64,000 nucleotides of DNA, taken from Chloroflexota bacterium. Lineage in GTDB: Bacteria; Chloroflexota; Anaerolineae; Anaerolineales; Villigracilaceae. The position numbers were made by a program, and so were the translations under genes. The DNA lies in the NCBI GenBank assembly GCA_016191845.1, contig JACPVF010000003.1, forward strand, positions 248,001-312,000, read 5' to 3'. Position 1 is the stretch's first letter. Each line of letters opens with the position of its first letter. This document shows positions 28,174 through 39,817 of this stretch, in pieces. The notes under the pieces are model-generated. The model did not search any database, had not been told where the DNA came from, and was given only the letters and a program-made list of their open reading frames with translations.

Positions 28174-29721
28174 ATGCTCGCTCGAACATACTCTTGCGCT
28201 GTAGTGGGTTTGGATGGCGTAATCGTCGAAGTCGAAGTAGATTACACCAACGGACTGCCCGGCATGACCATCGTGGGTCTGCCGGATGCCGCTGTGCAGG
28301 AAAGCCGCGAACGCGTGCAGACCGCCGTCAAGAACGCGGGGCTGCATTTCCCGCGTCACCGCGTGGTGGTCAACCTGGCCCCCGCCGTGGTCCGCAAGGA
28401 AGGTCCCGCCTACGACCTGCCCATCGCGCTGGGCGTTGTCATCCTGGCAGGTTACCTGCCGCAGGATGCCATCGAAGGCGCACTGGTCATTGGGGAACTT
28501 TCGCTGGATGGTGTGGCCCGCCACACACGTGGGATCCTGCCGATGGCCGCTGCCGCGCGTGCCAATGGATTCAAGCGGATGTTCGTCCCTGAAGTGGATG
28601 CCGCCGAAGCAGCCTTGATCCCTGACCTGGAAGTCTATCCCGTCAAATCGCTGGCCGACCTCTACGACCACTTGATGGGCCGCCGTTTGATCGAGCCATT
28701 CCAACCCTCCGATGCCCTCGCGCTCGACCCGCTCTTCGTCCCGACCGACTTCGCCGAGGTGAAGGGACAGGAACACGTCAAGCGTGCGCTGGAGGTAGCG
28801 GCCGCGGGTGGGCATAATGTATTGATGGTCGGCAGCCCGGGCGCGGGCAAGACCCTGCTGGCGCGCGCCCTGCCTGGCATCCTGCCGGAGATGAGCCTCG
28901 AAGAGTCGCTGGACGTGACACGCATCTACTCGGTGGCGGACCAACTCCCGGCAGGGACTCCGCTCATCCGTCAGCGGCCGTTCCGCGCGCCGCATCATAC
29001 CATCAGCCATGCAGGGCTGGTCGGCGGCGGGAACATCCCCAAGCCAGGCGAGATCTCGCTCGCGCATCGCGGCGTGCTCTTCCTCGACGAGTTCCCCGAG
29101 TTTGGCACGCGCGTCCTCGAAGTGATGCGCCAGCCGATGGAAGACAAGGTCGTCACCATCAGCCGCGCCAAAGGCTCGCTGACCTTCTCCGCCAACTTCC
29201 AATTGATCGCGGCCATGAATCCCTGCCCGTGCGGCTATTATGGCGACAGCCAGAAGCCCTGCACCTGCGCGCCTGCCATGGTCACGAAATATCAGAAGCG
29301 CATCTCAGGTCCATTGCTCGACCGCATCGACATCCACATCGAAGTTCCGCGCGTGGACTACGACAAACTGAGCAGCGATCGTCTCGGCGAAACCAGCGAG
29401 TCGATTCGCAAGCGCGTCCAGGCGGCGAGGGAGGTACAGAATCGACGATTTAGCGGGTCAGCGAATCAGCGAGCCAACGGGGGAACGGACATCGTCTGCA
29501 ATGCCGACATGCGCGTGGCCGAGGTACGGCAATTCTGTCAGGTGGACGACCAAAGCCAGGCCCTGATGCGCTCGGCCATGACGCAGTTGAACCTGTCGGC
29601 GCGCGCCTATCACCGCATCCTCAAGCTGGCGCGCACCATCGCGGATTTGGCCGGGAGTGAGCAAATCCAATCCGTGCACCTGGCCGAGGCGCTGCAATAC
29701 CGTCCAAAGTTAATGATGTAA
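28174..29721 (+). CDS. comM: ComM/YifB-like AAA+ ATPase (Mg-chelatase-like)
   Basis: 515 residues from ATG 28174 (MLARTYSCAVVGLDGV, the family start). An N-terminal Lon-like domain precedes the Walker A GSPGAGKTLLARALPG, FRAPHHTIS, Walker B GVLFLDEFPEF and AMNPCPCGYYGD. The family helps branch migration in natural transformation. Between EVQNRRF and TDIVCNADM the protein has an extra SANQRANGG-type stretch encoded by tandem 8-mers (29452-29483). Confidence 0.95.
   Translation: MLARTYSCAVVGLDGVIVEVEVDYTNGLPGMTIVGLPDAAVQESRERVQTAVKNAGLHFPRHRVVVNLAPAVVRKEGPAYDLPIALGVVILAGYLPQDAIEGALVIGELSLDGVARHTRGILPMAAAARANGFKRMFVPEVDAAEAALIPDLEVYPVKSLADLYDHLMGRRLIEPFQPSDALALDPLFVPTDFAEVKGQEHVKRALEVAAAGGHNVLMVGSPGAGKTLLARALPGILPEMSLEESLDVTRIYSVADQLPAGTPLIRQRPFRAPHHTISHAGLVGGGNIPKPGEISLAHRGVLFLDEFPEFGTRVLEVMRQPMEDKVVTISRAKGSLTFSANFQLIAAMNPCPCGYYGDSQKPCTCAPAMVTKYQKRISGPLLDRIDIHIEVPRVDYDKLSSDRLGETSESIRKRVQAAREVQNRRFSGSANQRANGGTDIVCNADMRVAEVRQFCQVDDQSQALMRSAMTQLNLSARAYHRILKLARTIADLAGSEQIQSVHLAEALQYRPKLMM
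29452..29483. repeat. Tandem degenerate 8-mer inserted in frame in comM
   Basis: Four successive 8-mers: AGCGGGTC, AGCGAATC, AGCGAGCC, AACGGGGG. They encode an extra loop where, as I recall, related ComM proteins go directly from the RRF region to the VCNADM segment. Confidence 0.6.
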
Positions 29722-29739
29722 ACAGAATTGCAAACACTT

Positions 29740-29772
29740 CTGAACAACTTCTGAACATGTCTTTGCTACAGT
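29740..29772 (+). promoter_or_regulatory. Pho-box-like direct repeat and -10 upstream of the phosphatase operon
   Basis: CTGAACA (29740-29746), 4 bases, CTGAACA (29751-29757): 7-mers at an 11-bp period, as in PhoB/OmpR-family boxes. Nine bases later is a -10-like TACAGT (29767-29772). No good -35 exists, which fits an activator-dependent promoter. The same layout recurs at 37707-37739. Confidence 0.75.
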
Positions 29773-29793
29773 ATGGGGGAAAGGAAACAAGAC

Positions 29794-31599
29794 ATGAAAA
29801 GAACCCTGCTCACCTGGCTGCTCCTGCTCGTCCTCCTCACGGGATGTATTCCCGCCTCCTCTTCCCCGATTCAATCTGATCCCGCCTCTCCCGCCGACGT
29901 GTACCCCGTTTCGGTCTCGGCCTCCAGCGGATTCACCCTCACCAGTCCCGCCGTGGCCGAAGGCGGGCGCCTGCCTATCGAGTACACCTGCGACGGCAGC
30001 GGCTCCACCCTGGCCCTCGACTGGAGCGGCGCGCCCGCCGAAACCCAATCCTTTGCCGTCGTCATGCACCACGAAGCGCAGGACGGCATCCACTGGTATT
30101 GGGTACTGTACGATATCCCTGCAAATGTGACCAGCCTGCCGACCGACGTCAGCGGCGTGGGTGTGCTCGGCAATAACATCAATAACGGCCTGGCGGAATA
30201 CTCTCCGCCCTGCTCGCAAGGCCCTGGCGATAAGACCTACACCTACACCGTGTACGCCCTGTCCGCCGAACCGCAGCTCGACCTCTCTGCCGAGCAGGTC
30301 ACGCGCGACGTCCTGCTGGCCGCCATCCAAGATATCACCCTGGCCAGCGCGGACCTGAACGTGGTCTACGCACGAGAGGGCATGACCGACCCTGCAGGCA
30401 ACCCACAAGCCGGGCCGCAGGGAGGCAAGAACCAGCCCACGGACGGTGCTCCCGCTTATAACATTGAGCAGGCCATTTCCGACAAGGCACAGGGCATGAC
30501 CATCTCGTACGATGCGCTGGCCTTCATGACGGGCGACCTCGGCGCGGACTCTTTCTTCCCTCCGGGCAAAGTGGCTGATTTCTGGGGCTTCCAGTACCTG
30601 CGCGACAACGACCCCAGTCAGATGGGTCATGCGGGCGACTTCCTGACCAGCGCCGCGATGAATACACTCAGCAATCTCACCGCCGAACAGCGCACAGAAT
30701 TGGTAACACTAGCCCAAAGTCAGGTGGACGATATCAATGCATACGGCTACAAGCGCTTCGTGCTGATGCAGGCCTTCCGCCGCCTCGCGGAGGGCGACCT
30801 CCCCGCTGGCACCACGGGCCTGGACGAAGATGCCGTCAAAGCCTACTCGGCAGAGTTGTATCAACTCGATGGGCAGATCAGCTTCGAGCGCGCGCAGATG
30901 ATGGGAAAAATCATTACCAGCCTGAGCGCGGATCAGAAGGCTTACTTCGACGCCATGATTGGCAAGGGCATGCAGGAATGGAACAGCGTCGAGGAACCCG
31001 AGGACATCCGTGGACTCGACCGCGATGTCAAGGTGGCAGTAATGACCTACGCCGCCGATCTGTACTCCTGGTATGCGGGCTCTGTCGAAGCGGATGTGTA
31101 CTTCTGTCCCGAACGACACGGCACCTACTTCGGCTCCTTCTACCTAAAGGACATCAAGGCCATGAGCGACCCAACCTATGCCATCCCCACCAACCTGACA
31201 GGCGACCTAGGCGAAAAGATGCTGACCCTGCTCACCCCTGAACAGGCAGGTCTGATCACCAGCCTGGTAGACATCCAGAAGCCGTCCCTGCAGGGCATCG
31301 TCTCGACCCGCGGACAGATCTCGACCGAACTGCGCAAGTTCAAGGACGGCGTCATTGCCGACCAGGCCACCGTGATGTCTCTGATGGCGCAATATGGCAC
31401 CTACGATGGCGAGATCATCTACAACATGGCAATCCATTTTTCGCAGGTGTACCAGTCCCTGACCGATGCGCAGAAAGCTGAGTTGACCGCCCTACGCACC
31501 GAACTGCTCGGTGAGCAGTCCCACCCCACGGGCGCCTACCTGTACTCGCAAGCCGTCCCCATGCCCGAGATTCCTAACACGGACTTTCTGTTCAAGTAA
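29794..31599 (+). CDS. Lipoprotein: PEBP (YbhB-like) domain + unrecognised C-terminal domain
   Basis: 601 residues from ATG 29794, preceded by GGAAAGGAA. Lipobox LLTGCI. Residues about 35-200 form a phosphatidylethanolamine-binding-protein/YbhB-like domain (FTLTSPAVAEGGRLPIEYTCDG ligand-pocket start, SFAVVMHHE, HWYWVLYDIP). Residues about 225-601 match, almost residue for residue, the C-terminus of the 33173-36220 protein: LGADSFFPPGKVADFWGFQY, YGYKRFVLMQAFRR, ADVYFCPER.GTYFGSFY, and the final IPNTDFLFK. I do not recognise that domain. It is first in the operon, followed by a metallophosphatase. Confidence 0.85.
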   Translation: MKRTLLTWLLLLVLLTGCIPASSSPIQSDPASPADVYPVSVSASSGFTLTSPAVAEGGRLPIEYTCDGSGSTLALDWSGAPAETQSFAVVMHHEAQDGIHWYWVLYDIPANVTSLPTDVSGVGVLGNNINNGLAEYSPPCSQGPGDKTYTYTVYALSAEPQLDLSAEQVTRDVLLAAIQDITLASADLNVVYAREGMTDPAGNPQAGPQGGKNQPTDGAPAYNIEQAISDKAQGMTISYDALAFMTGDLGADSFFPPGKVADFWGFQYLRDNDPSQMGHAGDFLTSAAMNTLSNLTAEQRTELVTLAQSQVDDINAYGYKRFVLMQAFRRLAEGDLPAGTTGLDEDAVKAYSAELYQLDGQISFERAQMMGKIITSLSADQKAYFDAMIGKGMQEWNSVEEPEDIRGLDRDVKVAVMTYAADLYSWYAGSVEADVYFCPERHGTYFGSFYLKDIKAMSDPTYAIPTNLTGDLGEKMLTLLTPEQAGLITSLVDIQKPSLQGIVSTRGQISTELRKFKDGVIADQATVMSLMAQYGTYDGEIIYNMAIHFSQVYQSLTDAQKAELTALRTELLGEQSHPTGAYLYSQAVPMPEIPNTDFLFK

Positions 31600-31622
31600 C
31601 AGACCCACCCCACTCTTCGGTT

Positions 31623-31646
31623 CCCCCTTCCCTTTGGGGAAGGGGG
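31623..31646. repeat. Intergenic palindrome (CCCCCTTCCC type)
   Basis: CCCCCTTCCC, three T residues, then GGGGAAGGGGG. It can form a 10-bp hairpin between the first lipoprotein gene and its metallophosphatase. There is no T tract, so it is more likely a dispersed palindrome or RNA-stabilising hairpin than a terminator. Confidence 0.6.
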
Positions 31647-31664
31647 CCAAGGGATAGGTCGAAT

Positions 31665-33158
31665 ATGAAAAAACCACTCTTCACCCTCATCTTCATCTTC
31701 CTCCTTACTGCTTGTGCTCCTTTTGCAACCGCCGCGCCAACGGCCATGCCCGAGCCGAGTCAAACACCGATGGTCAGCGAACAGGCTACAGCGGCTGAAC
31801 TGTCGCCCACAAAGCAGGGTCAGGCTGAGCCGGCGAAAAAGCCCAAAGGGCGGAATCAGCCCGCCGCACCGACTTCCACGAATGCGGACTTTGTCGCGGC
31901 TGAGATCTTGGGCCGCCCGACCGATACATCCGTCACGGTCAATGTGGTGCCTGCAACTCCCATGACCATCTATTATGAGTACGGCACGGAGTCGGGCGCA
32001 TACACGTTGCAGACCGCGCCGCAATCTGCCGCCGCGAACATGCCGTTGGAAACGCTGATCGAAGGTCTGCGACCCAACACGCGCTACTACTATCGCATCA
32101 ACCACAACGGTGTGGCAGGCGCGGAGCATTCCTTTGTGACCCAGCGCGCACCAGGTAGCACCTTCACCTTCGATATCCAAGGTGACTCGCACCCCGAGCG
32201 TGTGAAGAATCAGTTCGATGCCAGCCTGTACGTCAAAACACTTTCGAGCGCCGCGGCAGATCGCCCCGACTTCTATATCGCTATCGGTGACGACTTCAGC
32301 GTGGACACGCTCAAGGATGTGAACCCCGAGACCGTGCGGGCTTTGTACGTCAACCAACGCCAATGGCTGGGAACGGTCGGCGCGCCCATATTCCTCGTCA
32401 ACGGCAACCATGAGCAGGCCTCGCTCGCCAACCTGGACGGCACGCCCGACAACGTGGCGGTCTGGGCGCAGACTTCGCGCAACACCTACTTTCCGCAGCC
32501 CGCGCCTGATTCCTTCTACACAGGCGACGCCGAGCCCGTGGAACACATCGGCTTGCTGCGCGATTACTACGCATGGACATGGGGTGATGCGCTCTTCATG
32601 GTCATCGACCCATACTGGCACTCGCCTCAAACCGTGGACAACCAGTTCGGCGTGGACCGCGACCAGAAGAAAAACCGCGACCTGTGGAATGTCACTCTCG
32701 GCGATGCGCAATATCAATGGTTCAAGCACACGCTCGAAACCAGCACAGCCAGATACAAATTCGTATTCACCCATCATGTGCTTGGCACAGGGCGCGGCGG
32801 GGTCGAACTGGCGGGCGGCTATGAATGGGGCGACGCACCCCATTTCGCCGCTCACCGCCCGGGCTGGAACCAGACCATCCAGCAGGTCATGGCCGCCAAC
32901 CACGTCACGATCTTTTTCCAGGGCCACGACCACATCTTCGTCAAACAGGAACTCGACGGCGTCATCTACCAGACCCTGCCTGAGCCCGCCAACCCCAACT
33001 ACAGTTGGGAGAATGAAACCGCTTATCAAAGTGGAGAGAAATTCCCCAACAGCGGACATTTGCGTGTCACCGTCTCGCCTGCGGGCATAACCGTGGAATA
33101 CGTCCGCTCGTATCTCGGCCAGCCCGACGAAGTGACTTTTTCGTACACGGTCGAATAA
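31665..33158 (+). CDS. Secreted metallophosphatase lipoprotein with FnIII-like domain (purple-acid-phosphatase type)
   Basis: 497 residues. Signal peptide with lipobox LLTACA, then a long Pro/Thr/Lys linker to about residue 75. An FnIII-like domain (ILGRPTDTSVTVNVV ... RPNTRYYYRI) is followed by a calcineurin-type phosphoesterase domain. Metal-ligand motifs are GDSH (173-176), GDD, GNHE (247-250), THH and GHDH (420-423). This N-terminal FnIII plus MPP layout is that of purple acid phosphatases. Expected role: hydrolysis of phosphate esters outside the membrane. It is paralogous to the 36230-37705 protein, and its control by a Pho-like box fits phosphate scavenging. Confidence 0.9.
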   Translation: MKKPLFTLIFIFLLTACAPFATAAPTAMPEPSQTPMVSEQATAAELSPTKQGQAEPAKKPKGRNQPAAPTSTNADFVAAEILGRPTDTSVTVNVVPATPMTIYYEYGTESGAYTLQTAPQSAAANMPLETLIEGLRPNTRYYYRINHNGVAGAEHSFVTQRAPGSTFTFDIQGDSHPERVKNQFDASLYVKTLSSAAADRPDFYIAIGDDFSVDTLKDVNPETVRALYVNQRQWLGTVGAPIFLVNGNHEQASLANLDGTPDNVAVWAQTSRNTYFPQPAPDSFYTGDAEPVEHIGLLRDYYAWTWGDALFMVIDPYWHSPQTVDNQFGVDRDQKKNRDLWNVTLGDAQYQWFKHTLETSTARYKFVFTHHVLGTGRGGVELAGGYEWGDAPHFAAHRPGWNQTIQQVMAANHVTIFFQGHDHIFVKQELDGVIYQTLPEPANPNYSWENETAYQSGEKFPNSGHLRVTVSPAGITVEYVRSYLGQPDEVTFSYTVE

Positions 33159-33172
33159 AGAAAGGATGAACC

Positions 33173-36100
33173 ATGAACCTGCAAAGGACAATCACGATCC
33201 TGGTTTTGTTCGCATTGTTGACGGGCTGCGTCTTCAACTCGACCGCCCAGGCCGCGGCAGCCTCCCAGCCTGAAGCGCAAACTGCCTCCCTGCCTTATGC
33301 GGTGGTGGATACAGGCCAGAATAAATGCTATGACAGCAACGGCGCACCGATCACCTGCCCCGCCGCGGATGGAACGGTCTACGGTCAGGACGCCCAGCAC
33401 AACGGCAATCTGCCGAGTTATACCGATAATGGAGACGGCACCGTCACCGACCACGTCACAGGCCTGACCTGGCAGCAGAGTCCTGACACGGACGGGAACG
33501 CCACGATCAACGCCAGCGACAAACTGACCTACTCCGCGGCGGTCTCATACTGCAACAACTTGAGTCTGGCGGGCCAGACCGACTGGCGCCTGCCCGACAT
33601 CAAGACACTCTACTCGCTGATCGATTTCCGCGGCACCGACCCGAGCGGATTCAACGGCACCGATACCTCAAGCCTGAGCCCATTCATCGACACGGCCTAC
33701 TTCGACTTCGCCTATGGCGACACGGCGGCGGGCGAACGCATCATCGACTCGCAGTATGCGTCCAGCACCCTGTACGTGTCCAACACGGCCAACGATGGCG
33801 GCACGACAGTCTTCGGCGTTAACTTTGCTGATGGACGCATCAAGGGCTACGGCTCGCTCATGCCCGGTGGCGGGACAAAGACCTTCTTCGTCCAATGTGT
33901 GCGCGGCAATACCAGCTATGGAGTCAACGCGCTGACCGAAAACGGCGACGGTACCGTCACCGATTCCGCTACAGGCCTGATGTGGTCCCAGGCCGATAGC
34001 GGCGCGGCCCTCAATTGGGTGGACGCATTGGCCTGGGTCCAGACGAAGAATGCCGAGAACTACCTCGGTCACAACGACTGGCGCCTGCCGAACGCCAAGG
34101 AATTACAAAGCATCCTCGACTACACCCGCTCGCCCGCCACCACCAACTCGGCGGCCATCAACGCCGCCTTCAATGCGACCTCCTTCACCAACGAAGGCGG
34201 CCAGACCGATTGGCCCTGGTACTGGTCCTCTACCACGCATGGCACATACAACGGCATGGGTGCATCCGCCGCTTACCTGGCTTTTGGGCGCGCAGGCGGA
34301 TGGCAGAAGGCCACGCCCTCGGCCACCTGCTTCACCCTATACGACGTTCATGGCGCGGGCGCCCAACGCAGCGATCCCAAGACCACGGCGGGCCTGGTGA
34401 CGATGGGAACCGCCTGCAGCGGCGGCACCGCCTACGGCCTCGGTCCCCAGGGCGATATCCAGCGCGCGCTCAACTACGTCCGCCTGGTGCGGGATAACGT
34501 CTCGGCTACTACCTTTCAGGACGTGCCCACCACCTATTGGGCCTACTCGTGGATCGAGGCGCTGGCCGCCAACGGTGTGACGACAGGGTGCAGCACGGTC
34601 CCCAGTCTGTTCTGTCCTGCCATCCCCGTCTCCCGTGCGCAGATGGCGGTCTTCCTGCTTAGGTCCAAACATGGCTCCAGTTACATCCCACCCACAGCGA
34701 CGGGAAGCGTCTTCCAGGATGTGCCCGCTAACTATTGGTCCGCTTCCTGGATCGAACAGCTTGCCGCCGAGGGCATCACGGGGGGGTGCGGCGTCGGCTT
34801 GTACTGCCCCGAGATCACCGTCACCCGTGACCAGATGGCCGTCTTCCTGCTGCGCTCCGAACATGGCAGCGCATATGCTCCGCCCACAGCCACGGGAACC
34901 GCCTTTGGGGATATTCCCGCCGATCACTGGGCCGCAGATTGGATCGAACAGCTCGTCTCGGAAGGCATCACCTCAGGCTGCAGCGGCGGGAATTATTGCC
35001 CATCCGCCTCGGTGACACACGACCAAATGGCGGTCTTCCTGGTACGGACCTTCAACCTGCCTTCCACGCCCGCGCTGTTCAACATGGAACAGACCCTTTC
35101 AGAGGGCGCCCAACGCAACACCATCGCCTTCGATGCACTGGCCTTTCTCACGGGCAACCTCGGGGCGGATTCCTTCTTTCCGCCCGGCAAAGTGGCCGAC
35201 TTCTGGGGCTTCCAATACCTGCGCGATAATGACCCCAGCGAGATGGGTCACAACACCGACTTCCTGACACGCGCCTCGCTCAACATGCTCCACGTCCTCA
35301 CCAGCAGCCAGAAGGCCGACCTGATCGCACTGGCCAAGGCACAGGTTAACTCGATCAACGAGTACGGTTACAAGCGCTTCGTACTAATGCAGGCCTTCCG
35401 CCGCCAGTTGACGGGTGACCTGCCCGCGGGTACCACAGGCCTGGATCCCAACGCCGTGGCCGCCTATTCGGCCGAGCTCTATCGCCTCGATGGGCAGATC
35501 AGTTACGCGCGGGCGCAGATGATGGGCAGCATCCTCTCCGCATTGGACGCCGACCAGCGCGCCTACCTCGACGCCATGGTCGGGCAGGGCATGACCTCCT
35601 GGCCCGTGGTGCCCGAACCGCCCGAACTCCAGGGGCTCAGCCACGATGAGAAAGTGGCCACCATGACCTACGCAGGCGACATGTTCAGTTGGTATGCGGG
35701 CTCGATGCAGGCCGATGTCTACTTCTGCCCCGAACGCCAGGGCACCTATTTCGGTTCGTTCTACATGAAGGACGCGCCCGCCGTCGGCAACCCCGATTAC
35801 ACCATCCCTTCCAACCTCACGGCGGAGATGGGCGAAGCCCTCCTGCAAACGCTGACGCCCGATCAGGCGCTCCTTATTACGAACCTCGTCACCGACCAAA
35901 AGTCCTCCCTGACTGAGATCGTCCGCAGCCGCGAGGAGGTCTCCATGCTGCTGCGCCAATTCCTGGTGGGCGGTGCACCCAGCCAGGAGACCGTGCTGGC
36001 CCAAATGGAATACTACGGCCAATTGGATGGTGACATCATCTACCGCTATGCCGTTGCCTTCTCACAAGTCTCGCAGTCTCTCACCGACGCCCAGCGCGCG

Positions 36101-36220
36101 CAGCTGACAACCCTGCGCACGGACCTGCTGGGCGACCTGTCTTATCCCAGCGGCGCGTACCTGTATTCGGACGCCATCCCCATGCCGACCATTCCCAACA
36201 CCGATTTCCTGTTCAAATAG
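33173..36220 (+). CDS. Large lipoprotein: two DUF1566 (Lcl) domains, three SLH domains, unrecognised C-terminal domain
   Basis: 1015 residues. Lipobox LLTGCV. Two DUF1566/Lcl-type domains (about 80-245 and 260-440) each show NGDGTVTD..TGL.W and DWRLP. Three S-layer-homology repeats of about 60 residues follow (about 445-625); each has a GC...C pair before the (S/T)xxQMAVFL.R helix. Residues about 637-1015 are the same unrecognised domain as in 29794-31599, ending in IPNTDFLFK. SLH repeats suggest attachment to cell-wall polymers, so the protein probably sits at the cell surface. It is again followed by a metallophosphatase (9 bp gap). Confidence 0.88.
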   Translation: MNLQRTITILVLFALLTGCVFNSTAQAAAASQPEAQTASLPYAVVDTGQNKCYDSNGAPITCPAADGTVYGQDAQHNGNLPSYTDNGDGTVTDHVTGLTWQQSPDTDGNATINASDKLTYSAAVSYCNNLSLAGQTDWRLPDIKTLYSLIDFRGTDPSGFNGTDTSSLSPFIDTAYFDFAYGDTAAGERIIDSQYASSTLYVSNTANDGGTTVFGVNFADGRIKGYGSLMPGGGTKTFFVQCVRGNTSYGVNALTENGDGTVTDSATGLMWSQADSGAALNWVDALAWVQTKNAENYLGHNDWRLPNAKELQSILDYTRSPATTNSAAINAAFNATSFTNEGGQTDWPWYWSSTTHGTYNGMGASAAYLAFGRAGGWQKATPSATCFTLYDVHGAGAQRSDPKTTAGLVTMGTACSGGTAYGLGPQGDIQRALNYVRLVRDNVSATTFQDVPTTYWAYSWIEALAANGVTTGCSTVPSLFCPAIPVSRAQMAVFLLRSKHGSSYIPPTATGSVFQDVPANYWSASWIEQLAAEGITGGCGVGLYCPEITVTRDQMAVFLLRSEHGSAYAPPTATGTAFGDIPADHWAADWIEQLVSEGITSGCSGGNYCPSASVTHDQMAVFLVRTFNLPSTPALFNMEQTLSEGAQRNTIAFDALAFLTGNLGADSFFPPGKVADFWGFQYLRDNDPSEMGHNTDFLTRASLNMLHVLTSSQKADLIALAKAQVNSINEYGYKRFVLMQAFRRQLTGDLPAGTTGLDPNAVAAYSAELYRLDGQISYARAQMMGSILSALDADQRAYLDAMVGQGMTSWPVVPEPPELQGLSHDEKVATMTYAGDMFSWYAGSMQADVYFCPERQGTYFGSFYMKDAPAVGNPDYTIPSNLTAEMGEALLQTLTPDQALLITNLVTDQKSSLTEIVRSREEVSMLLRQFLVGGAPSQETVLAQMEYYGQLDGDIIYRYAVAFSQVSQSLTDAQRAQLTTLRTDLLGDLSYPSGAYLYSDAIPMPTIPNTDFLFK

Positions 36221-36229
36221 GATGACCCC

Positions 36230-37705
36230 ATGCCTGTCCACCTTCGCTGGATTCTGATCCCGTTGCTGTTGCTCGCCCTGCTGGCCGCCTGCGTCCCTCA
36301 ACCGGCCCCGAGCTTGACACCGTTAAACAAGCAGACTCCCACCGTCCAGCCGCCTGCTCCCACGCAGAAGCCCGCACGCGGCGCCAAGATCCCTGATGGT
36401 GGACAGGGCGGTGTCTCGCAGAACCTGTCCTTCGAAATCCCCGCCCATCCCCTCGACGTGATCCTTGGCCGCCCAACGGACACGAGCATCACCTTTTCCC
36501 TGCTTGCCTGCAACGACCAGACCGTTTCCATTGCTTATGGAACCGAGTCGGGCAACCCCACATCGAAAACCGAAGCGATCCCCCTGAAAGCCAATGCGCC
36601 ACAAACTTTCCTGCTTTCCAGCCTTCAGCCCGATACCCAATATTATTACTCCATCAATGGCGGGAGCGAAAATACCTTCCACACCGCCCGTGCTGCAGGC
36701 TCGACCTTTACCTTTACTCTCCAGGCAGACTCGCACCTGGATTCGAACACCGATCCGCAGGTATACCTGCAAACCCTCGCCAATCAGCGCGCTGACCATC
36801 CAGACTTCATCATCGACCTGGGCGACACCTTTATGACCGAAAAGTACAAACCCTATACCGGGGCCGCGCCACAATATCTGGCCCAGCGCTACTTCTTCGG
36901 TCAACTGGCAGATACGGCCCCACTCTTTCTCGTGCTGGGCAATCACGACGGCGAAGGCGCGCCACGCGGTAAAGATGGTGAAGAAATATCGATTTGGGCA
37001 GCGCAAATGCGCACGAAATATTTTCCTAACCCGGCGCCCGATGGTTTCTACACAGGCAACACGCTCCCCCAACCCGCCGTCGGCGACCTGCAAGATTACT
37101 ACGCCTTCACATGGGGCGACGCGCTTTTCATCGTCCTTGACCCATACTGGTTCACCCCATCCCAGCGCGGCAACACCACCGACTTATGGAATCCCACCCT
37201 CGGCAATGCGCAATATCAATGGCTCAAGTCTACACTTGAAAGTAGTAACGCCAAATGGAAATTCATATTCATCCACCAACTCATCGGTGGCTTGGACAAG
37301 GACGGGCGCGGCGGTGTGGAAATCGCCCCTTACCACGAATGGGGTGGACTCAATCCCGATGGCTCCTGGGGCTTTGATGAAAATCGCCCGGGCTGGGGCA
37401 TGTCCATCCACCAATTGCTGGTTGCCAATCATGTCAACGCTGTATTTCACGGTCACGACCATCTCTTCGTCCGTCAGGAACTGGATGGCATCACCTATCA
37501 GGAGGTCCCCCAGCCTGGCTCCGCCCGCGCGGATAACACCAGCAGTGCCGCCGACTACGGTTACCTCAGCGGCGACATCTTCGGCGGAACCGGTCACCTG
37601 CGCGTGACGGTCTCGCCGGAGCAGGTCACGGTGGAATATATCTGCACGAGTCTGTCGAGCAGTCAGAACGGGCAGGTGGTTTTCAGGTACTCCATCCTGC
37701 CATGA
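36230..37705 (+). CDS. Secreted metallophosphatase lipoprotein, second copy
   Basis: 491 residues with lipobox LLAACV and a Pro/Thr linker. An FnIII-like segment (ILGRPTDTSITFSLL ... QPDTQYYYSI) precedes the calcineurin-type domain with QADSH, LGD, GNHD, a H-containing FIHQ, and GHDH. It lines up along its length with 31665-33158. One conserved difference is ADSH for GDSH and GNHD for GNHE, both common in the superfamily. It closes the operon. Confidence 0.9.
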   Translation: MPVHLRWILIPLLLLALLAACVPQPAPSLTPLNKQTPTVQPPAPTQKPARGAKIPDGGQGGVSQNLSFEIPAHPLDVILGRPTDTSITFSLLACNDQTVSIAYGTESGNPTSKTEAIPLKANAPQTFLLSSLQPDTQYYYSINGGSENTFHTARAAGSTFTFTLQADSHLDSNTDPQVYLQTLANQRADHPDFIIDLGDTFMTEKYKPYTGAAPQYLAQRYFFGQLADTAPLFLVLGNHDGEGAPRGKDGEEISIWAAQMRTKYFPNPAPDGFYTGNTLPQPAVGDLQDYYAFTWGDALFIVLDPYWFTPSQRGNTTDLWNPTLGNAQYQWLKSTLESSNAKWKFIFIHQLIGGLDKDGRGGVEIAPYHEWGGLNPDGSWGFDENRPGWGMSIHQLLVANHVNAVFHGHDHLFVRQELDGITYQEVPQPGSARADNTSSAADYGYLSGDIFGGTGHLRVTVSPEQVTVEYICTSLSSSQNGQVVFRYSILP

Positions 37706-37706
37706 C

Positions 37707-37739
37707 CTGAACAATTTCTGAACATCTTTCTGCTATCAT
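37707..37739 (+). promoter_or_regulatory. Pho-box-like direct repeat and -10 upstream of the two-component system
   Basis: CTGAACA (37707-37713), 4 bases, CTGAACA (37718-37724), then nine bases and TATCAT (37734-37739). The spacing is identical to 29740-29772. The -10 is six bases from the response-regulator ATG, so the transcript is probably leaderless. Suggests autoregulation. Confidence 0.75.
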
Positions 37740-37745
37740 AGAGGC

Positions 37746-38426
37746 ATGAAAACCATCCTCGTCGCCGACGACAAGGCCAACATCCGCAACCTGGTGCGCG
37801 ACTATCTCGAAGCCGAAGGCTTTCGCGTGGTCATCGCTGCGAACGGACGTGAGGCATTGTATGCCGCCCGCGCCGAGAAGCCCGATTTGATTTTGCTCGA
37901 CATCATGATGCCCGAGATGAGCGGATACGACTTCATCAAGGCCTATCGCAGGGAGCGCGAGACACCTATCATCCTGCTGACCGCCAAACTGGACGAGACT
38001 GACAAGGTGCTCGGACTTGAACTCGGCGCTGATGATTATGTCACCAAGCCCTTTGGCATGAAGGAACTGACTGCCCGCATCCACGCCGTGTTGCGCCGCG
38101 TTACTCGCCCTGCCGCCGAGTCAGAAATCCTCGCTGCGGGTCCCATCCGTCTGGACCGCGCCGCCCGCTCCGTCCAGGTGGGCGGGCAGACCGTCAGTCT
38201 GACGCCGTCCGAGTTCGAGTTGTTGTTCGCGCTGATGTCCACGCCCGGGCGGGTCTTCTCTCGCTCCGACCTGCTGCTCAAATTACAAGGCACCGCCTTC
38301 GAAGGCGTGGAGCGCACCATTGATGTCCACGTCCGCAACCTGCGCACCAAGATCGAACCCGACCCGTCCAACCCGCAGTACATTGTTACTGTCTTTGGGG
38401 TTGGGTACAAATTTACAGCAGGGTAA
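37746..38426 (+). CDS. OmpR/PhoB-family response regulator
   Basis: 226 residues. Receiver domain with acidic pocket DD at 8-9, phospho-acceptor D52 (LLDIMMPEMSG) and the conserved Lys in YVTKPFG. The C-terminal winged HTH reads LTPSEFELLFAL ... RTIDVHVRNLRTKIEPDPSNPQYIVTVFGVGYKF. OmpR/PhoB proteins bind 11-bp direct repeats as dimers, and such repeats lie in front of both this gene and the phosphatase operon. I therefore infer that it is the activator of both. Confidence 0.95.
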   Translation: MKTILVADDKANIRNLVRDYLEAEGFRVVIAANGREALYAARAEKPDLILLDIMMPEMSGYDFIKAYRRERETPIILLTAKLDETDKVLGLELGADDYVTKPFGMKELTARIHAVLRRVTRPAAESEILAAGPIRLDRAARSVQVGGQTVSLTPSEFELLFALMSTPGRVFSRSDLLLKLQGTAFEGVERTIDVHVRNLRTKIEPDPSNPQYIVTVFGVGYKFTAG

Positions 38427-38482: not shown

Positions 38483-39817
38483 TTGAAACTGACTTCGAAA
38501 CTCACCCTCGCTTTTCTGCTCGTCAGCCTGATCGCCGTCGGGCTGGCGGCCTTGTTTGTGTGGACCACCACCTACGTCCAGTTCGACCAATATCTGGTGG
38601 ACCAGCGCCAGGGTCAGTTCGTGGCCATTGCAGCCGAATACTATCAATCCCAGGGAAGTTGGTCAGGCGTCGATGCTGTTCTGCGCGAGCAGGGGTTGCT
38701 GCCGCCCTTCGCCCAGCCAGGCACCCAACAGCCCGACCCGCAGCCCTTCGCGCTGGTGGACCAGAACCGCGTGGTCATCGTCCCCGGCGGGCAGTATCGG
38801 CCCGGACAAAAGGTGCAAAAAGGGACGCTGGAAAAGGGGATCGGGATCGAGGTCGGCGGAGTGGTGGTCGGCACGGTGCTGACCACCGGTCAGGCACCTA
38901 CGCGCAGTCCCATCGAGGACAAGTATCTGACCCATGTGAACCAATCGCTGCTGGTGGCGGCGTTGGGCGGTGCGCTGATTGCCCTGCTGCTGGGGCTGTT
39001 CCTGGCCCGCTCGTTGACCCATCCTGTTCGCGACCTGACAGCGGCCACCGTTTCGATGGCGCAGGGCCGCTTCAGCCAGCCTGTTCCCATCCGCTCGCAG
39101 GATGAGTTGGGCAAACTGGCGGCGTCCTTCAACCAGATGAGTGCCGACCTGGAACGCGCCAACCGCGCCCGCCGTCAGATGACCGCCGACATCGCCCACG
39201 ACCTGCGCAATCCGCTGACGGTGCTCAGCGGTTATCTCGAGTCGCTTCAGGACGGCAAACTCCAACCCACACCCGAACGATTCGAGGTGATGCAATCAGA
39301 GGTCCAGCACTTGCAGCGGCTGGTGGAAGATTTGCGAACGTTGTCGCTGGCCGACGTGGGGGAGTTGAAATTGCATCGGCAGCTCATCGCACCTGCCGAC
39401 CTGCTGGAGCGGGTTGTGGCGGCTTATCGCCACCAAGCAGAAAGTCAGCAGATTGAATTAAGCGTCGATACCCAGGGAGCCCTGGCCGAGATCGAATTGG
39501 ATCCCGAACGCATGGAGCAGGTTCTGGGCAACCTGGTCAGCAACGCATTGAGGTACACACCCGAGGGCGGAACCATCCGCCTGTCGGCGGATCAGGCTGA
39601 GGATCGGCTGGTGTTGGGCGTGGAAGATAGCGGAAGCGGAATCCTGCCCGAGGTCCTGCCACACATCTTTGAGCGGTCTTATCGCGGCGACCCATCCCGC
39701 TCGGGAAATGAGTCAGGACTGGGGCTGGCAATCGCCAAATCCATCGTGGAACTGCACGGGGGAAGCATCTACGCCGAAAGTGCTTCGGCGGGGACTCGTT
39801 TTACCATCATACTGTAA
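38483..39817 (+). CDS. Sensor histidine kinase with HAMP domain
   Basis: 444 residues starting at a TTG codon (38483) with GGAA upstream. Two transmembrane helices (about 7-28 and 155-178) bracket an extracytoplasmic sensor region of about 125 residues. HAMP follows (ARSLTHPVRDLTAATVSMAQG). The phospho-acceptor is His239 in TADIAHDLRNPLTVLSGYLES; N-box NLVSNALRYTPEGG and GLGLAIAKSIVELHGG are intact. It is partner of the response regulator 57 bp upstream. The start lies within a degenerate repeat (ACCTGAC-type), which makes the exact N-terminus less certain. Confidence 0.93.
   Translation: MKLTSKLTLAFLLVSLIAVGLAALFVWTTTYVQFDQYLVDQRQGQFVAIAAEYYQSQGSWSGVDAVLREQGLLPPFAQPGTQQPDPQPFALVDQNRVVIVPGGQYRPGQKVQKGTLEKGIGIEVGGVVVGTVLTTGQAPTRSPIEDKYLTHVNQSLLVAALGGALIALLLGLFLARSLTHPVRDLTAATVSMAQGRFSQPVPIRSQDELGKLAASFNQMSADLERANRARRQMTADIAHDLRNPLTVLSGYLESLQDGKLQPTPERFEVMQSEVQHLQRLVEDLRTLSLADVGELKLHRQLIAPADLLERVVAAYRHQAESQQIELSVDTQGALAEIELDPERMEQVLGNLVSNALRYTPEGGTIRLSADQAEDRLVLGVEDSGSGILPEVLPHIFERSYRGDPSRSGNESGLGLAIAKSIVELHGGSIYAESASAGTRFTIIL

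Follow-up and report, generated by a model that had tools for sequence, protein, structure and literature searches.

A direct-repeat box shared by an exported-protein operon and the adjacent OmpR/PhoB-family regulator in an Anaerolineales genome, and its probable place in an envelope regulon

A 64,000-nucleotide stretch from a Chloroflexota bacterium of the order Anaerolineales (assembly GCA_016191845.1, contig JACPVF010000003.1, positions 248,001 to 312,000), hereafter the window, carries the same direct repeat, CTGAACA-N4-CTGAACA, ahead of an operon encoding two phosphoesterases and again ahead of a two-component system. Which protein reads this box, and to which signal do the genes behind it respond? 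An earlier note on this DNA had proposed a phosphate-starvation regulon. The comparative sequence analysis presented here suggests a different answer: the response regulator encoded at 37746 very probably acts as an activator at the box, in what is probably a BaeSR-like envelope regulon and not a phosphate regulon.

The box and its promoters

Scanning of the window located exact copies of the repeat at 29740-29757 (CTGAACAACTTCTGAACA) and 37707-37724 (CTGAACAATTTCTGAACA), both on the forward strand, as are all window features given below. The first (box 1, CTGAACA-ACTT-CTGAACA) is a proposed response-regulator activator site; the second (box 2) reads CTGAACA-ATTT-CTGAACA. A -10-like hexamer lies 9 bases past each of them, TACAGT at 29767-29772 and TATCAT at 37734-37739, so that the pattern TANNNT at +9 was found at two of two sites, and the promoter scan gave no consensus -35/-10 pair at either box. 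The earlier note had described a repeat 9 bases ahead of a -10 at 29740 and 37707, with the period and -10 distance of a PhoB box; both descriptions hold, since the copies are exact, the hexamers are present and an 11-bp direct repeat stands just ahead of each -10. The two copies are the only exact ones in the 4,628,747-base genome, in which the reversed control gave none, and the chance expectation for an exact box on both strands, from window composition, is about 0.04. Up to two mismatches being allowed, the whole genome yielded 32 matches versus 10 for the reversed control; among the 30 of these 32 that were inspected, TANNNT at +9 was restricted to the two window sites and to C11:75452, a CTGCACA repeat.

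An extra in-phase half-site was detected at -22, the strongest upstream offset over 39 strict sites, with a mean of 4.08 of 7 matches as compared with a half-site average of 1.85 (standard deviation 0.51) over offsets -50 to -1; offset -11 (2.77) was barely above the neighbouring -10 (2.74). Box 1 displays GTAAACA at this position (29718..29724), a weak half-site read in the sequence that matches 5 of 7 letters and lies in phase, 22 bases ahead of the box, and little was seen at -22 of box 2. The regulator ATG follows its -10 by six bases in the window (37734-37746), as well as at L031:14291, L032:14970 and G382:C11:16505. This six-base gap suggests a leaderless or near-leaderless transcript from that promoter.

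Conservation of the box with its regulator

The operon behind box 1 encodes two copies of a long LTXXQ-like helical domain, termed HEL. A scan of named genome contigs gave 45 loci with this domain (646 kb), 32 of whose titles name a Chloroflexi lineage. With at most one mismatch, the box was found 17 times in these loci, and not at all with reversed or complemented halves. The count of 17 belongs to a spacing of 11; every alternative between 8 and 23 yielded 0 to 6, the value of 6 being reached at 22 as a weaker echo. TANNNT stood at +9 in 17 of 17 such boxes and in 8 of 15 further sites with two mismatches. When the -10 was required and up to three mismatches were tolerated, 28 sites were recovered in 17 of the 45 loci, all of them on the strand of the HEL gene; the same search gave no site on the opposite strand, and none for the reversed half on the HEL strand. 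Genes following these sites encode PEBP, SGL plus PEBP, HEL, phosphoesterase, N_BRCA1_IG and PMT_2 proteins, and the regulator itself.

The distribution was further analysed over 396 genomes of the class, the own genome included, with the pattern CTDAACA-N4-CTGAACA-N9-TANNNT. It gave 25 sites in 23 genomes belonging to 11 families, and a single one when reversed. The exact form CTGAACANNTTCTGAACA was present in only 4 of the 396 genomes, as compared with 23 for the looser first half with the -10, CTTAACA being the first half in the majority of the 25 sites; one exact site, in G232 (L113), has no TANNNT at +9 and may be due to chance. Relatives of the window regulator (E <=1e-90) occurred in 79 of the 396 genomes overall and in 20 of the 23 box genomes, a co-occurrence with a nominal Fisher P of 1.3e-12, related genomes not being independent. 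In the remaining three box genomes the best regulators were 58% (G209), 51% (G237) and 63% (G259) identical. In 15 of the 25 cases the regulator gene lies on the same strand no more than 3.4 kb past the site. Among the upstream regions of regulator genes (the 30 best of 82 matches, window included), 12 of 30 scored at least 13 of 17, versus about 0.8% of shuffles.

All 10 box-bearing relatives that were read share the recognition-helix stretch RTxDVHxRNLR, and the regulator of this genome's phosphate (Pho) locus reads RTVDVHVRWLR instead. In L146, L151 and L152, a drifted CTTCATA-type repeat, also with TANNNT at +9, lies upstream of regulator relatives. Comparative genomics establishes that the box exists, how it is built, on which strand it lies and that it co-occurs with the regulator; and, because box genomes mostly carry a close relative of the regulator and sites often lie ahead of that gene, the regulator very probably uses the box as its own activator site. 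Alternatively, the repeats might have been duplicated by chance or belong to an ordinary promoter without any regulator of their own; that this genome has just two copies would fit such a view. Conservation, strand, the fixed +9 spacing and the co-occurrence with the regulator across 11 families make it hardly credible.

The first genes after the 25 class sites were read from the sequence for 23 sites and taken from the window for two; none of them is pst or phoU. Small secreted helical proteins accounted for nine first genes, the regulator for five, Lcl_C-like lipoproteins for four and VTC, with a DUF4956-like gene next, for two; PEBP-HEL, phosphoesterase, Cthe_2159, PMT_2 mannosyltransferase and ABC-MacB occurred once each. 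These assignments rely on partial profile searches, covering four of the nine helical proteins and one of the four Lcl_C proteins (G269); the others and the G237 phosphoesterase were assigned by reading. Among the secreted helical proteins, DUF2680 scored over its cut-off for G209 and G383 and under it for G165 and G193; one homologue, from G112 and outside the 25 sites, gave no profile match. The proposed regulon consists of secreted and envelope proteins.

According to the mechanism that we propose, the stimulated BaeS-like kinase would lead to a phosphorylated regulator, which would occupy the half-sites, phased at 11 bp, as a tandem dimer directly ahead of the -10, stand in for the -35 element and recruit RNA polymerase. 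Box 2 would then provide autoregulation of the regulator-kinase pair, and box 1 would switch on the operon whose four genes encode exported proteins (PEBP-HEL, two metallophosphoesterases, Lcl_C-SLH-HEL). Binding and activation are what we infer here, as are the inducing signal and the function of the HEL protein considered below.

Paralogous systems were encountered in the same genome. At L249 (G000:C11:74000-82500, L249:1453), CTGCACA-N4-CTGCACA-N9-TATCCT precedes an MFP-ABC-MacB-regulator-kinase operon whose regulator is 57% identical to that of the window; the names MFP, ABC, MacB and kinase stem from sequence reading, not from a profile search. Compared with the window, the geometry is the same, each half-site has one letter changed, and efflux-type genes replace those for HEL and the phosphoesterases. 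On the minus strand of G000:C17 (L112:3265), ATTCACA-N4-ATTCACA-N9-TATACT precedes by about 500 bases a further paralogous regulator (54% identity).

The operon behind the box and the phosphate question

Box 1 has the end of a ChlI-type ATPase gene on one side and a tight four-gene run on the other, and box 2 is placed straight after the last stop of this operon, ahead of the regulator and histidine kinase genes. The first gene (29794..31599) would encode a secreted lipoprotein with a PEBP domain and a HEL domain (30454-31596); both its start and the lipoprotein reading are predictions, ATG 29794 being the likely start because ATG 29773 abuts the -10. It is followed by the metallophosphoesterase MPE1 (31665..33158), by a protein combining Lcl_C, S-layer homology (SLH) and a second HEL domain (33173..36220; HEL at 35075-36217), and by the metallophosphoesterase MPE2 (36230..37705). 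By inspection, all four proteins have exported-lipoprotein-like N-termini. The two HEL domains are 65% identical and are the only HEL matches of the genome. The OmpR/PhoB-family response regulator, proposed to bind both boxes, and the BaeS-like sensor histidine kinase are encoded at 37746..38426 and 38483..39817, respectively.

Both phosphoesterases deserve attention, as they inspired the phosphate reading. Profiles and motifs identify them: among Pfam-type profiles, Metallophos was over its cut-off in MPE1 and MPE2, Pur_ac_phosph_N under it in both, and PhoD over it in MPE2 only. Residues D174, H176, D209, N248, H249, H370, H421 and H423 were invariant in 18 of 18 aligned phosphoesterases; the motifs D-x-H, GD, GNH, H and GHxH are those we take to be the metal ligands of PhoD/purple acid phosphatase-like enzymes. 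No sequence relative of MPE1 or MPE2 was found among solved structures at E 0.01, and a fold search was therefore needed for MPE1, whose model (mean pLDDT 75.7) came nearest to B. subtilis PhoD (2yeq, E 2.2e-20) and to a wheat purple acid phytase. A phosphoesterase gene lies 5' of the regulator in eight of the 45 HEL loci, and the box is also found ahead of a phosphoesterase in L037 and, by sequence reading, in G237. In L048 and L052 the order phosphoesterase-regulator-kinase is kept beside the HEL genes, though the regulator is only about 43-44% identical.

The phosphate genes proper are located elsewhere. The genome has one PhoU match, inside the Pho locus L109 (G000:C3:80000-99500), together with PstS, PstC, two PstA-like and two PstB-like proteins, a PnpS/PhoR-like kinase (PnpS 331 and PhoR 282 bits, both under cut-off) and a regulator for which YycF was the best model and PhoB the fourth. 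No CTGAACA repeat with up to two mismatches was found in these 19.5 kb, and the gene of the Pho-locus regulator is preceded by a different 11-bp repeat, TTTTAAC-N4-TCTTAAC, without TANNNT at +9. The letters of the pho box differ from those of the CTGAACA box, and PhoD is a Pho-regulon enzyme in B. subtilis. A PhoU match was present in 17 of the 22 other box genomes, 16 times over cut-off; none was found in the other 5, single-contig G326 included, assemblies that may be incomplete.

Genes of the VTC type, presumably polyphosphate polymerases, come after the box in G326, G181 and, with one mismatch, G232. The last of these box-VTC arrangements lies about 3.4 kb upstream of a regulator relative, on the same strand. 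At the loci concerned, L116, L183 and L208, the VTC gene after the box is itself followed by a DUF4956-like gene, DUF4956 being recognized by profile in L208 only.

A phosphate-starvation or organophosphate-scavenging regulon with its own box, in which a second PhoBR-like pair would induce secreted phosphatases, could draw on the two metallophosphoesterases among four operon genes, with their invariant ligand residues and PhoD-like fold, on the phosphoesterase and VTC genes just mentioned, and on the fact that PhoB is the regulator's second-best model, one bit below MtrA. It is opposed by the separate, box-free Pho locus and by the presence of only two exact boxes in the genome, as well as by the class-wide targets, since of the 25 sites none precedes pst or phoU, one directly precedes a phosphoesterase and two precede VTC (the window phosphoesterases, being genes 2 and 4, are not first genes after the box). 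The box genomes without a PhoU match, with the reservation on their assemblies, point the same way, as does the kinase, in which the profile search found no PAS domain and for which BaeS-like models are best. A phosphate regulon is thus unlikely; neither the genome-wide box scan, nor the Pho locus, nor the class-wide targets support it.

The proposals of the earlier note can be sorted on this basis. The genome scan that it had suggested returned two exact hits, neither of them at pst or phoU, and its phosphate-starvation regulon finds no support in view of the separate Pho locus and the class-wide sites. Its notion of a separate box sequence is retained, in that the repeat has the behaviour expected of an operator for the neighbouring OmpR/PhoB-family regulator (activator-like geometry, autoregulation, shared target operon). 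The description as a PhoB/PhoR-like system applies to the regulator, which is of the OmpR/PhoB family, and not to the kinase, which is BaeS-like rather than PhoR-like. The purple-acid-type assignment agrees with the metallophosphoesterase motifs, intact in both enzymes, and with the PhoD/purple-acid-phosphatase fold of the modelled one; as a description of the operon it covers only two of four genes, the others encoding PEBP-HEL and Lcl_C-SLH-HEL proteins.

Envelope signal, HEL domain and known systems

The regulator displayed a receiver domain (105.7 bits) and a Trans_reg_C winged helix (90 bits), both over cut-off. For the kinase, the two best models were BaeS ones and spanned its full length (BaeS_SmeS, 260 bits, residues 3-437; PRK10549, 258 bits), whereas the PhoR model TIGR02966 covered the kinase core only (222-443; 179 bits for a cut-off of 334). 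BaeS also ranked first for the kinases of G382, G326, G284 and L031. In G193, the site has an RND pump gene on one side and, on the other, the gene of the secreted protein in front of its regulator-kinase pair, and in G015 an ABC-MacB pair comes directly after the site. Given a box found in 11 families, mostly with a close regulator and before envelope or secreted genes, envelope or extracytoplasmic stress, as for BaeSR, is the best-supported candidate for the signal and probably the correct one.

Another possible explanation is a WalRK- or MtrAB-like regulon for surface-matrix or cell-wall remodelling, which would tune glycosylation, S-layer-associated and matrix proteins and would not respond to stress. 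The targets include PMT_2 mannosyltransferases (L042, L049, G200), SLH/Lcl_C proteins, VTC-DUF4956 pairs and Cthe_2159; among the models, MtrA ranks first for the regulator, and for the kinase WalK comes close behind BaeS, though over the core only. The RND pump that ends just upstream of the G193 site and the ABC-MacB pair after the G015 site are at odds with it, as are the small secreted helical proteins, a BaeR/CpxR-style target, that separate site from regulator in 8 of the 25 cases. We regard remodelling as unlikely.

LTXXQ (PF07813), a family that we assume to be linked to CpxP/Spy, was matched by 38 of 53 HEL domains at E <=0.01 (best 2.6e-9), and Metal_resist by 12. The window domain reached 32.6 bits with LTXXQ, for a gathering cut-off of 24.3, no single stretch passing alone. 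Its AlphaFold model is confident (pLDDT 93.3); a Foldseek comparison with the PDB returned no match at E <=0.001, and a second structure comparison gave no clear match (best Z 5.2, rmsd 8.4, 198 aligned), results that neither assign the fold to a family nor rule any family out. HEL may therefore be regarded, on the basis of this model, as a candidate unusual helical fold. A ferritin-like DUF2202 assignment, considered at first, was dropped in the absence of such a Pfam match.

Several observations weigh against a BaeSR-like envelope regulon read from this box. Position 3 of the class pattern was relaxed to D once relatives had been seen; of the 79 genomes in which the regulator has a close relative, 59 contain no strict site; and 28 of the 45 HEL loci lack a site (-10 required, up to three mismatches), among which L048, L052, L055, L060, L062 and L064 have regulators only about 38-44% identical and others end early. 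In 10 chosen genomes, boxes with at most one mismatch numbered 22 versus 5 for the reversed control, and TANNNT stood at +9 in 11 of the 22. L146 and L151 have drifted boxes yet the same recognition-helix stretch, which alone does not therefore explain the box. With respect to family, the regulator scored 224.6 bits with MtrA, 223.5 with PhoB and only 186 with BaeR (cut-off 380), the kinase is far under the BaeS cut-offs (260 versus 500 for BaeS_SmeS, 258 versus 603 for PRK10549), and WalK ties with BaeS for the G193 kinase. The window operon contains no efflux pump. The kinship of the window HEL domain with LTXXQ consists of profile matches, none passing as a single stretch, in a fold without a clear match. 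Finally, HEL and box seem to go together only in part: HEL is present in 9 of the 396 class genomes, and 3 of these 9 are among the 23 strict-box genomes, so that HEL would be one output of the regulon and not its mark.

A broader proposal, which we put forward tentatively and with some doubt, is that of a class-wide, so far undescribed envelope-stress regulon whose promoters would share one grammar (half-sites in phase, then nine bases and TANNNT, with no -35) and whose paralogous two-component systems would each have their own half-site (CTGAACA, CTGCACA, perhaps ATTCACA and CTTCATA); its local output, a new large LTXXQ-like helical domain and secreted PhoD-type phosphoesterases, might constitute an extracellular stress-protection kit. 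Neither box nor regulon was named in the titles and opening abstract lines of the literature matches listed, most subscription papers and bioRxiv preprints lying outside the literature covered, and within the same scope no work pairing CTGAACA with 'direct repeat' and 'response regulator' was found. In a bacterial class that has received little study, a phosphate reading that seemed plausible but found no support gives way to a testable regulon, with a proposed binding word for a regulator that has close relatives in 79 of the 396 genomes sampled. Several families without known function (HEL, Lcl_C, DUF2680-like, VTC-DUF4956) would be tied to one signal, and the paralogues within the genome offer a natural set for studying the joint drift of regulator and box.

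Comparison with known systems can be summarized as follows. As in the PhoB/PhoR Pho regulon, an OmpR/PhoB-family regulator is associated with a direct repeat close to the -10 with strict spacing; box sequence, kinase type and targets are different, and the Pho locus of this genome lacks the box. For PhoB, a strict repeat spacing is likewise supported by structural models (PMC10294691). With the LTXXQ family, profile matches are common, but HEL has 381 residues versus 100 for the profile and no clear PDB match. Regarding BaeSR, direct targets of E. coli BaeR include mdtABCD-baeSR and spy (PMC7657598), and in A. baumannii BaeSR affects the expression of an RND pump and of MacAB, direct binding of BaeR to the promoters of these genes not being demonstrated there (PMC4498774). 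The window system differs from E. coli BaeSR by its pump-less operon, its large HEL, PEBP and phosphoesterase proteins and its scores far under the curated cut-offs, and resembles it in the full-length BaeS match of the kinase and the LTXXQ-like domains of the operon; in relatives, an RND pump gene adjoins one site and an ABC-MacB pair follows another, both being candidate targets of the BaeSR kind. Such a system would work like BaeSR while falling outside the curated BaeS and BaeR families.

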